From NCBI GenBank assembly GCA_947475715.1, contig CANJNY010000036.1:1-37234 (forward strand): DNA of 37,234 nt, read 5' to 3'. Made by a program: the position numbers and the translations under genes. The stretch comes from Prolixibacteraceae bacterium. GTDB lineage: Bacteria; Bacteroidota; Bacteroidia; Bacteroidales; Prolixibacteraceae. The notes below the pieces were generated by a model. That model did no database searches and was not told the origin of the DNA. It saw nothing but the letters and a program-made list of their open reading frames with translations. Below are positions 14,412 through 16,637 of this stretch, one piece after another. Position 1 is the stretch's first letter; every line of letters starts with the position of its first letter.

Positions 14412-14443
14412 TTGAATGGTTTTTTTTTCAATTATTATTTTTA
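14412..14443 (+). promoter_or_regulatory. Candidate promoter of the tyrA attenuator transcript
   Basis: TTG at 14412-14414 and TATTTTTA at 14436-14443 are separated by 21 nt; the second box differs from TAnnTTTG at one base. It lies about 30 nt before the leader-peptide ATG, the expected place for an attenuator promoter. Confidence 0.45.
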
Positions 14444-14473
14444 ATTTTACGCCAAATAATAATAAAGATTAGA

Positions 14474-14542
14474 ATGATTATAAACAATACTTTTTACTTT
14501 TGGTTTGGTTATCTCGGCCTTCGTATGGGGACTGGACGGTAA
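14474..14542 (+). CDS. Aromatic leader peptide of the tyrA operon
   Basis: A 22-codon ORF, ATG at 14474 and TAA at 14540-14542. Residues 7-13 are FYFWFGY: three Phe, two Tyr and one Trp in seven codons. The last codons (ACT GGA, 14531-14536) can pair with TCCAGT (14582-14587) in the 5' arm and loop of the terminator that follows. The ORF lies 98 nt upstream of tyrA. This is the classic architecture of a leader peptide whose ribosome senses aromatic aminoacyl-tRNA levels. The ORF is seen directly; its role is inferred from composition, pairing and the genes downstream. Confidence 0.8.
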   Translation: MIINNTFYFWFGYLGLRMGTGR

Positions 14543-14563
14543 GGTATTGTCGAACAAACAATA

Positions 14564-14611
14564 TTAAATCAAAAAGAGGTCTCCAGTTTTGGAGACCTCT
14601 TTTTGATTTAA
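14564..14611 (+). terminator. Attenuator terminator upstream of tyrA
   Basis: A perfect 22-bp stem (14564-14585 with 14590-14611) around a GTTT loop, core GAGGTCTCCA/TGGAGACCTC, with TTTTT in the 3' arm. It ends 28 nt before the tyrA ATG, so transcripts into the operon must read through it. A smaller hairpin, TATTGT with ACAATA, lies just before it. The segment 14527-14536 can pair with its 5' arm and would prevent it from forming. Confidence 0.88.
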
Positions 14612-14639
14612 AGAATTCAGAAATAAAAAAATTAGGATA

Positions 14640-15536
14640 ATGAAACTCGCAGTAATTGGACTTGGGCTCATCGGCGGATCGATGGCAAAAGATTTGCGCA
14701 GAACCAGATTTGCAACTGAGATCATAGGGGTTGATAACCATCCTCTGAATGCCCGGTTAGCGGTCGAAATGGGTATTGCTGACCGCATTGAGCCTATTGA
14801 GGTTGCTGTGAAAGAGGCTGATATTGTTCTAATTGCGATTCCTGTAGATAAAATTGTCTCTTTACTCCCTTACATTCTTGATCACATCTCCTCCTCCACA
14901 ACGGTGATCGATGTTGGATCAACCAAGCGTGAAATAACTGAGGCTGTTAAGGATCACCCCTTACGAGGTAATTTTATCCCTTCGCATCCCATGTCAGGAA
15001 CCGAAAACAGCGGACCATCGGCAGCGATTGAGCATCTTTTTGAAAATAAGATCTGTATAATCTGTGATCATGAGAAGTGCAGGCCACAGCATCTTGCTCT
15101 TGCCGAAAAAATGTATCAGTCACTGGGAATGCCCATTGCATACATGTCGAGTGATGAACAGGACCACACTACCGCTTTTATCTCCCATTTGCCACATGCC
15201 ACATCCTTCGCACTGGCAAATGCAGTATTAGCCATCGAAGACCGCAACATTATTTTCGATCTGGCTTCAGGAGGTTTTCAATCGACCGTGAGACTGGCCA
15301 AAAGTTCACCCCAGATGTGGTCCCCCATCTTTTGGCAAAACAGAGATTATATTTATGAAGCTCTTGAGGTCTATATCCGCCACCTTGAAGAGTTTAAACA
15401 AACCCTCAAACAAAATGATCATGAAGGACTCACCGCCTTGATCATAAATGCCAATAAAATCAGGGGTGTACTCGAAGGAGAGAATTCATCCCTAACAAAA
15501 AACGAAGAAACAATTATTAAATTTTACACAAAATAA
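14640..15536 (+). CDS. tyrA: Prephenate dehydrogenase
   Basis: Oxidatively decarboxylates prephenate to 4-hydroxyphenylpyruvate in tyrosine synthesis. The NAD(P)-binding fingerprint GLGLIGG is at residues 7-13, followed by an acidic residue at the end of strand 2 (GVDNH). SHPMSGTENSGP, DHTTAFISHLPHATSFALAN and FQSTVRLAKSSPQMWSPIFW are the substrate-site and dimer motifs of the family. It is 298 aa with no ACT domain visible, so feedback control may rest elsewhere. It is the first gene after the attenuator, and only 6 nt separate its stop from the next gene. Confidence 0.94.
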   Translation: MKLAVIGLGLIGGSMAKDLRRTRFATEIIGVDNHPLNARLAVEMGIADRIEPIEVAVKEADIVLIAIPVDKIVSLLPYILDHISSSTTVIDVGSTKREITEAVKDHPLRGNFIPSHPMSGTENSGPSAAIEHLFENKICIICDHEKCRPQHLALAEKMYQSLGMPIAYMSSDEQDHTTAFISHLPHATSFALANAVLAIEDRNIIFDLASGGFQSTVRLAKSSPQMWSPIFWQNRDYIYEALEVYIRHLEEFKQTLKQNDHEGLTALIINANKIRGVLEGENSSLTKNEETIIKFYTK

Positions 15537-15542
15537 ATAAAC

Positions 15543-16637
15543 ATGGGATCATTATTAGACATCCGACCGATTAGTCACTGGTTACCAAATATAGATAATC
15601 CACTGCTAATAAGCGGGCCTTGCAGCCTTGAATCGGAAGAGCAGACAATGGCGACAGCGAGGGAACTTGCAAAAGATAAACGGGTAATGGTGTTCCGCGG
15701 AGGAATTTGGAAACCGCGCACACGTCCGGGTTCATTCGAAGGAATGGGTACCGTTGCCCTGAAATGGCTTCAACAGGCTAAGGAGGAGACAGGCTTACTC
15801 ACTGGCACAGAAGTAGCTAATGCACAACATGTTGAAGAGTGCCTGAAAGCCGGTGTGGATATTCTCTGGATTGGAGCAAGATCAACGGCCTCCCCTTTTG
15901 TGGTACAGGAAATTGCAGATGTCCTAAAGGGAACCGATCAGATTGTGATGGTTAAAAACCCGGTAAATCCAGATGTACAGTTATGGATGGGGGCATTGGA
16001 AAGACTAAATCATGTCGGAATAAAAAATCTGGTTGCGATTCATCGCGGCTTCACCCCCTTTGGCGATTCAAAATACCGCAATTATCCAAACTGGAAAACA
16101 GTGATTGAGTTAAGGCAATTAATGCCAAACCTCCCGATCATCTGCGATCCGAGTCATATTGCCGGCAAACGTGAATATCTGTTCGAAATTTCGCAAAAGG
16201 CTTTTGATCTTGGATTAGACGGGCTCATGCTTGAATCACATATTGACCCTTCGTGCGCGTTAAGCGACAAGGATCAGCAGGTAACTCCTTCGGAATTAGG
16301 AAAAATACTGGATAAGCTGGTTATCAGATATGCCAGTTCCAATGATCCGCAGTTTGAAAATATGCTCGATGCACTTCGTTCAAGGATAGATGGGATTGAC
16401 CATGAGATCATGGAAATTCTTGCTTCAAGAATGGAGATTGTTAAACAGATCGGAACCTACAAGAAAGAGAATAAAGTTACTGCCCTTCAGATTAACCGCT
16501 GGACTCAGATTATGGAGGATCGCCTGAAGATTGCACGCAAACTAAACCTCGATGAAACACTGGTTAAATTAATGTTCCAGCTGATCCACGAGGATTCTGT
16601 GCGCATGCAGACCGAGATAATGGATAACGATTTATAA
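15543..16637 (+). CDS. DAHP synthase / chorismate mutase bifunctional enzyme
   Basis: Residues 1-265 form a type I-beta (KDPG aldolase-like) 3-deoxy-7-phosphoheptulonate synthase with GPCSLE (25-30), FRGGIWKPRTRPGSFEG, GTEVAN, WIGARS, AIHRGF and CDPSHIAGKR. Residues about 270-355 form an AroQ chorismate mutase (ALRSRIDGIDHEIMEILASRMEIVKQIGTYKK). The pair catalyses entry into the shikimate pathway and the branch towards prephenate. Such fusions are common in Bacteroidota, where the mutase domain also transmits feedback inhibition. It is cotranscribed with tyrA behind an aromatic-rich leader. No pheA or aspC lies beside it in this window. Confidence 0.95.
   Translation: MGSLLDIRPISHWLPNIDNPLLISGPCSLESEEQTMATARELAKDKRVMVFRGGIWKPRTRPGSFEGMGTVALKWLQQAKEETGLLTGTEVANAQHVEECLKAGVDILWIGARSTASPFVVQEIADVLKGTDQIVMVKNPVNPDVQLWMGALERLNHVGIKNLVAIHRGFTPFGDSKYRNYPNWKTVIELRQLMPNLPIICDPSHIAGKREYLFEISQKAFDLGLDGLMLESHIDPSCALSDKDQQVTPSELGKILDKLVIRYASSNDPQFENMLDALRSRIDGIDHEIMEILASRMEIVKQIGTYKKENKVTALQINRWTQIMEDRLKIARKLNLDETLVKLMFQLIHEDSVRMQTEIMDNDL

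Follow-up and report, generated by a model that had tools for sequence, protein, structure and literature searches.

How the transcription of an aromatic amino acid operon may be tied to the supply of its end products in Bacteroidota, a phylum in which, to our knowledge, the regulation of amino acid synthesis has been little studied, is the question raised by a short intergenic region in the genome of a Prolixibacteraceae bacterium. The region belongs to a stretch of 37,234 nucleotides (contig CANJNY010000036.1 of assembly GCA_947475715.1), hereafter called the window, in which the end of rsgA (14286) is separated from the start of tyrA (14640) by a gap of 353 nt that holds a short leader ORF and a hairpin. 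An earlier note on this DNA had read the two as a leader-peptide attenuator. Our comparison of relatives indicates that the finding is real and that this interpretation is right in essentials, which we regard as well supported, with one pairing corrected and one helix added. By far the best explanation, to which we give a probability of roughly 0.93 on the evidence of sequence, is that a ribosome-mediated transcription attenuator controls the tyrA-DAHP synthase operon.

Leader ORF, predicted terminator and operon in the window

The leader ORF, as read from the plus strand, comprises 22 codons (MIINNTFYFWFGYLGLRMGTGR) and extends from the ATG at 14474 to the TAA at 14540-14542. Its codons 7-13 (14492-14512) specify Phe-Tyr-Phe-Trp-Phe-Gly-Tyr, just as the earlier note had it, and would constitute the regulatory codons, i.e., the zone in which a ribosome may stall. 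The genes presumably regulated follow on the same strand: tyrA (14640-15536), encoding prephenate dehydrogenase (Pfam PDH_N and PDH_C), and, after a spacing of 6 nt, a DAHP synthase-chorismate mutase fusion (15543-16637; Pfam DAHP_synth_1 and CM_2). Taken alone, the aromatic ORF of the window is only mildly unusual (p = 0.008 for a chance short ORF with at least six aromatic codons in seven, on the sense strand of a region of 353 nt matched for dinucleotides), and it is conservation that decides.

Between the leader ORF and tyrA, the plus strand carries a predicted intrinsic terminator hairpin (14564-14611), whose arms (14564-14585 and 14590-14611) form a perfect inverted repeat of 22 bp around a 4-nt loop (14586-14589); as the note had stated, it ends 28 nt (14612-14639) ahead of the tyrA ATG. 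A terminator scan called it, with 20 pairs (the maximum of the scan), for the minus strand and not for the plus strand; we think that the plus-strand call is missing owing to the position of the U tract within the long stem. In most relatives, a shorter stem followed by a T-run was seen by eye.

Conservation of the leader and of a candidate promoter in the family

A tyrA gene was found in 125 of 140 family genomes, representing all 23 genera; the named contigs among these relatives include those of Prolixibacteraceae and of uncultured Bacteroidia. We examined the region upstream of tyrA in 122 of the 125 genomes, leaving out three (G007, G085 and G119) in which the matches lie at contig ends. 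An aromatic leader ORF was present in 122/122 regions (119 found by script; L077, L080 and L103 by eye), so that codons for the end products of the pathway stand in a short ORF directly 5' of the operon throughout, and a terminator-like hairpin was seen by eye after the leader in each of them, including L113, where the terminator finder script had missed it. The earlier note had proposed such an alignment of relatives and had named as refutation the loss of the ORF or of the aromatic codons from relatives in which the terminator is retained; we looked for this loss, and all 122 regions keep both, while the antiterminator pairs covary, as described below.

Since the leader start of L077 is missing at a contig end, further counts refer to 121 full leaders, which are 15-24 codons long. 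Four or more consecutive Phe/Tyr/Trp codons occur in 120 of them; a Trp codon is present in 83 and absent in 38. Phe and Tyr are about equally frequent (means 3.6 and 3.8) in these leaders of an operon without pheA, a balance that would suit a chorismate mutase-DAHP synthase operon feeding both. Among the 30 longer family loci (L001-L030, flanks of up to 1.5 kb), DAHP synthase follows 3' of tyrA in all 30, and no match to pheA or an aminotransferase was found beside tyrA. In 67 representatives, the TT- and TA-initial codons of the aromatic core end in T or C 430 times versus once in A or G, compared with 127 versus 28 for the same codon classes in frame +1 and 94 versus 222, with 36 stops, in frame +2. 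These counts, which a U-rich sequence alone would not give, indicate that selection is on aromatic residues and not on U-richness.

Small departures in the position of the stop codon were also observed. In L115, L140 and L143 (family genus g9), the stop codon of the leader comes several codons early and is followed closely by the antiterminator strand, which a terminating ribosome could still reach. In L094 (G056), the leader appears to end early, just 5' of the antiterminator strand, owing to a small difference in length from its relatives, as judged by eye; this appears to be a sequencing error or drift.

A candidate promoter precedes the leader. A TAnnTTTG-like box, TAATTTTA (14442-14449, plus strand), was picked by eye as the possible -7 element and aligns with the boxes of close relatives, but its last base differs from the Bacteroidota consensus TAnnTTTG and the automatic search preferred TATTTTTA, at 14436, as the best box of the window, which scores 8. 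A -33/-7 pair scoring 9 or 10 of 10 was found in 33 of the 67 representatives, whereas mononucleotide shuffles would give 2.8 of 67; in 28 of these 33 the box starts 26-35 nt 5' of the leader ATG. The promoter region of the window is overlapped by a second short aromatic frame (14412-14444), LNGFFFNYYF as read from a TTG, which is probably due to chance.

Alternative helices in the leader RNA

Covariation was scored in an alignment (A1) of 63 of the 67 representatives, L025, L029, L030 and L086 having been dropped because of trimming failures, and compared with 500 shuffles and with slid controls; kinship among the sequences makes the shuffle counts overstate significance, and the controls are to be taken as guides rather than as probabilities. 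L058, which is shortened in A1, was left out of the folding and segment-swap tests, and L103 was left out of the swaps as well. For the terminator helix, 94.2% of alignment cells are paired, double changes occur in 7 of 10 pairs and the covariation score exceeds those of all 500 shuffles and of the slid controls. Sequence and comparison thus both place a predicted intrinsic terminator between the leader ORF and the first gene.

The antiterminator would be formed by region 2 (GGGGACU, 14527-14533), which lies in the last leader codons, and the core of the terminator 5' arm (GGUCUCC, 14578-14584), which covariation marks as common to antiterminator and terminator. Standard pairs make up 96.8% of the cells of this helix in A1, and double changes occur in 5 of 7 pairs, with combinations that include GGGAUC/GGUCCC, GGAGAUC/GGUCUCC and GGAAUC/GGUUCC. 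At 0.391, the covariation score of the helix is higher than in all 500 shuffles (mean 0.273) and in every slid control; by the number of doubly changed pairs, the helix is only moderately above the shuffles (5 versus 3.2, with 28 of 500 as high). When the segments were compared without an alignment in 61 leaders, the duplex energy was -11.3 for a leader's own segments versus -9.5 for swapped ones, and 0 of 200 permutations were as good. From the last part of the leader ORF and the 5' arm of the hairpin, the RNA would thus build an antiterminator that excludes the terminator. The earlier note had placed this pairing between ACTGGA (14531-14536) and TCCAGT (14582-14587). Both motifs are present in the window and the region in which they pair covaries, but the conserved register is that of 14527-14533 with 14578-14584: the ACTGGA/TCCAGT register is complete in only one of 13 genus members, namely the window itself; the nearest relative has 5 of the 6 pairs, and the other 11 have 2-4.

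A further helix, a protector stem, had been missed in the note. Its 5' strand, segment A (14484-14493), lies in the Asn-Asn-Thr-Phe codons, and its 3' strand, segment B (14541-14550), starts in the stop codon. In A1, 77.6% of the cells of A:B are paired, with double changes in 8 of 11 pairs, and the covariation score is 0.246 versus 0.168 in the shuffles, of which 0 of 500 were as high; it is also above the slid controls. By the number of doubly changed pairs, A:B does not clearly stand out from the shuffles (8 versus 7.0, with 144 of 500 as high). The duplex energy in the same 61 leaders, again obtained without an alignment, was -8.8 for own versus -6.0 for swapped segments, and 0 of 200 permutations were as good. 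A predicted protector (1:2) structure is thus provided by A:B, although it is absent in L103, whose divergent leader is without segment A. According to folding, a segment C (14558-14565) may pair with 14543-14550 of B inside the antiterminator; comparison supports this pairing only weakly, with 6 of 200 permutations doing equally well. Another protector pairing tried inside the ORF (alignment columns 50-54 with 67-71) showed no covariation above shuffles.

Taken together, the comparison brings out an ORF conserved at the amino-acid level and three predicted helices, of which the antiterminator would exclude the other two. The pairing of the RNA could also account for those conserved residues of the peptide that lie outside the aromatic block.

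Predicted folding states and proposed mechanism

In the predicted fold of the whole window leader, A:B forms together with the terminator, 14484-14491 being paired with segment B; the fold has a z score of -5.4 against 200 dinucleotide shuffles, which is largely owing to the terminator. We then folded the nascent leader as far as the 5' arm of the terminator, with the part covered by a ribosome and the part preceding it masked. The stall-masked leader of the window yielded exactly the pairing of 14527-14533 with 14578-14584, with B:C nested inside. Across 62 leaders, the antiterminator was the predicted fold in 15 when nothing was masked, in 56 when a stalled ribosome was assumed and in 0 with the ribosome at the stop codon, compared with 5 of 1240 mononucleotide shuffles of the stall-masked piece; the masks delete segments by construction, and these numbers speak to whether the geometry fits and not to kinetics. 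Against the model stand the 6 stall-masked leaders in which the antiterminator is not the fold and the 15 in which it forms without a ribosome. As modelled, therefore, the stall/stop geometry that the earlier note had proposed appears to work, since the stall mask frees region 2 for the antiterminator and a ribosome at the stop codon prevents this pairing.

We propose the following mechanism, in which translation and stalling, termination in the cell and the identity of the amino acids sensed are what we infer from these patterns. Transcription would start just 5' of the short leader ORF. Under a shortage of charged tRNA for Phe, Tyr or Trp, a ribosome would stall at leader codons 7-13 and cover segment A, so that the protector stem could not form; region 2 (14527-14533) would then be available for pairing with the 5' arm of the terminator (14578-14584), and, with this antiterminator in place, RNA polymerase would read through into tyrA. 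A point against the model is that, with an assumed footprint, only part of A would be covered by a ribosome stalled at the last of the aromatic codons. When amino acids are plentiful, the ribosome would reach the stop codon at 14540 and cover both region 2 and B, allowing the terminator to form. If no ribosome is present, the A:B stem would keep region 2 in its loop, and termination would be favoured too. A single leader may in this way sense Phe, Tyr and Trp together, as the earlier note had suggested, although 38 of the 121 family leaders have no Trp codon.

Related leaders outside the family and elsewhere in the genome

Searches beyond the family were made with a covariance model of the family element (R1), which rests on one family and gives only rough E-values. 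R1 matched 65 of 295 genomes of the order at E <= 0.01, four of the 65 belonging to the family of the window, and 14 of 296 genomes of the phylum at E <= 0.001, one being that of the window; matches outside the family are neither complete nor all to the same kind of element. The phylum search gave 14 loci beside the window, namely nine aromatic leaders before pheA, two Thr/Ile leaders and three at which nothing was recognised.

Among 51 regions outside the family (a set taken from genomes already found by R1, hence biased towards similar elements, and from which L231, at a contig end, was left out), 43 have an aromatic leader before a recognised aromatic operon, and 8 are without such an operon. 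The operons contain differing combinations of pheA, an aminotransferase, DAHP synthase-chorismate mutase and tyrA; the first gene, as assigned by Pfam in all eight cases tested, encodes a prephenate dehydratase in five and an aminotransferase in three. Leader composition varies along with these genes. The leaders of the two pheA-only operons read FFFFFF, and those of the five aminotransferase-tyrA-DAHP synthase operons are Tyr-rich, e.g., YYYYY (L195) and YYYWYYY (L191), with L190 and L192 mixed. Counting F and Y over the whole chosen ORF, and with some near-copy leaders in the set (L222/L225, L237/L242, L214/L216, L217/L218), we found F/(F+Y) to be higher in the 36 operons with pheA than in the 7, from 7 different families, without it (Mann-Whitney p = 7.6e-5, no tree correction); L185, a pheA-tyrA operon with a Tyr-rich leader and F/(F+Y) of 0.22, runs counter to this trend. 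Trp codons are seen in 16 of the 28 operons that include tyrA versus 1 of the 15 that do not (Fisher p = 0.0012, no tree correction), and the Tyr fraction in the 43 operons outside the family was not significantly related to the presence of tyrA (p = 0.085, no tree correction).

Of the eight regions without an aromatic operon, we take two to carry attenuator-like leaders of other pathways and the other six to be chance or unrelated terminators. In one of the two, L224 (G342:C5:18147-18295, minus strand), the leader MRNTINNIINISIIILLWERDRK, rich in Ile and with some Leu, precedes LeuA-type and aconitase-family genes; in the other, L241 (G416:C35:24695-24827, plus strand), the leader MNIVITNWWWHNNSLKLVSNLPM, with three Trp codons, precedes a trpB-like gene (PALP family) and a gene for anthranilate synthase component I. 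A leader reading MYNQFIISSIIIAGVISHSGKE was also observed in L165 (G286:C140:6418-6541, minus strand), before a class IV aminotransferase gene and an ilvD-family gene. L198 (G568:C1:644721-644851, minus strand) and L199 (G510:C2:604582-604713, minus strand) have leaders rich in Thr and Ile codons that open with MIFNTSIITTIIITTG; the gene 3' of the L198 leader encodes an aspartokinase-like amino acid kinase with ACT domains (Pfam), and that of L199 is assigned by sequence resemblance only. We regard the two as candidates for a thr-type attenuator elsewhere in Bacteroidia.

A second copy of the element in the window's own genome was not apparent among 11 further R1 matches, the best of which is the minus strand of the same site (E 0.008), followed by matches with E of at least 0.014; no aromatic leader was seen at the seven strongest of them. 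The genome also has a separate pheA, followed by a flavodoxin gene, and no leader was found among the short ORFs listed in the 500 nt upstream of it. A degenerate tandem array of a 21-nt unit, in about 15.6 copies, lies 5' of this pheA of G000:C23, at positions 2201-2527 of L184.

Alternative explanations and evolution of the leader

The same RNA switch could also be set by a nascent-peptide arrest sequence, of which TnaC and SecM represent types, if the peptide sensed a free ligand in the ribosome and stalled there. Such a peptide would be in keeping with the conservation of the aromatic block at the amino-acid level and of residues flanking it, e.g., Asn-Asn, which are often conserved; however, the Asn codons covary with segment B, so that the RNA can explain them, the order and number of F, Y and W differ between genera, and the composition tracks the presence of pheA, as codon counting predicts, unlike a fixed arrest motif. 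We consider this explanation very improbable. Smaller still is the likelihood we assign to a bidirectional terminator that merely insulates tyrA from rsgA, with the short ORF being incidental: the hairpin lies 277 nt past rsgA and accompanies tyrA in relatives, covariation links its 5' arm to the last part of the leader ORF, and codon selection is confined to one frame, even though a perfect 22-bp palindrome does scan as a minus-strand terminator and the aromatic ORF, taken alone, is only mildly unusual (p = 0.008). Finally, the terminator might be controlled by a ligand- or tRNA-binding element, i.e., a riboswitch or T-box, as a conserved structured 5' leader ahead of biosynthetic genes could suggest, yet no curated Rfam family reached its gathering score anywhere in the window, a test that covers the described classes, and the codons together with the switching helices explain the conserved positions; this is the least probable of the three.

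Returning to the ribosome-mediated attenuator, we lean slightly towards a single ancestral device that, in much of the class, has remained linked to the aromatic operon, with its leader being retuned by codon replacement upon gain or loss of pheA, the aminotransferase or tyrA, and with one ribosome stall integrating the supply of Phe, Tyr and, in many lineages, Trp. If this is true, the leader would be a readable record of the end products to which each operon answers, and also a rare tyrosine-sensing attenuator. Relatives whose operons differ in content also differ naturally in their Phe, Tyr and Trp codons and offer ready-made test pairs for what each leader senses. Moreover, a working attenuator, if true, would imply a coupling of transcription and translation tight enough for a stalled ribosome to steer RNA polymerase.

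Relation to known systems

Vitreschak and colleagues are said to have predicted, in 2004, attenuators in Proteobacteria and some other phyla. The remark in the earlier note that attenuation of this kind is best known from Proteobacteria is fair, but cases in Bacteroidota have already been predicted, as far as the available text of the sources tells (PMC1173090, PMC2864571, PMC9723704). For the operon of B. thetaiotaomicron pheA-hisHb-aroA-aroQ-tyrA, Table 7 of Song et al. (2005; PMC1173090) lists a putative attenuator taken from a prediction website; pathway operon and phylum are the same as here and the attenuator is likewise predicted, whereas the available text of that paper describes no leader peptide or comparative support. 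The F. psychrophilum transcriptome study (PMC9723704), as available, presents strong hints of attenuation by leader peptides ahead of amino acid operons and, in Flavobacteriaceae, structured 5' elements before pheA and hisG, including a conserved pheA element without an Rfam match; leader-peptide attenuation before amino acid operons is thus suggested there too, although the lineage and the first gene are different and its accessible text gives no leader sequence or mechanism. Short ORFs reminiscent of leader peptides are mentioned in the accessible text on the B. thetaiotaomicron transcriptome (PMC7366714), and that of Stav et al. (2019; PMC6429828) mentions uORFs with Phe and Tyr at shikimate genes; these share with our leader the Phe and Tyr codons upstream of aromatic pathway genes, but come from the five genomes of that study, for which the accessible text names neither organism nor sequences. 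A paper on leader peptides (PMC4833913) adds, in its accessible text, nothing on this leader.

Rfam families provide a second set of comparisons. The window leader has 29 weak Rfam matches (E <= 10). Phe_leader (RF01859) stays below its threshold, with 37.1 bits versus a gathering score of 55, and this match is judged to be mostly hairpin because the minus strand scores nearly the same (35.2). An identity with BTnc060 was considered and dropped (20.8 bits, E 0.49, not significant; no paper was found under that name). Bacteroid-trp (RF01692), listed by Weinberg et al. (2010; PMC2864571), is likewise a cis-regulatory RNA in Bacteroidota, whose name, in the part of that source available, points to trp genes; it is not among the 29 weak matches (E <= 10) of the leader and has no match at E <= 0.01 in the genome of the window or in 12 genus mates. 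In the literature within our search, outside which most subscription papers lie, we met no description of this leader peptide, of its covarying helices or of the relation to operon content. The kind of attenuation is classical and attenuators were predicted in Bacteroidota before; what is new, judging from the sequences, is this leader with strong comparative support.

In the E. coli trp and pheA leaders, three alternative helices occur and the stop codon adjoins the antiterminator strand. By analogy, the logic of the leader described here is that of the trp attenuator, with putative protector strands flanking the regulatory codons. The E. coli attenuators (Rfam Trp_leader and Phe_leader, RF01859) and the present one would have in common a leader ORF with codons for the end products of the pathway, protector, antiterminator and terminator helices, and a stop codon by the antiterminator strand. 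Unlike in E. coli trp and pheA, the codons for Phe, Tyr and Trp are mixed in a single leader here, and the predicted protector segments flank these regulatory codons.
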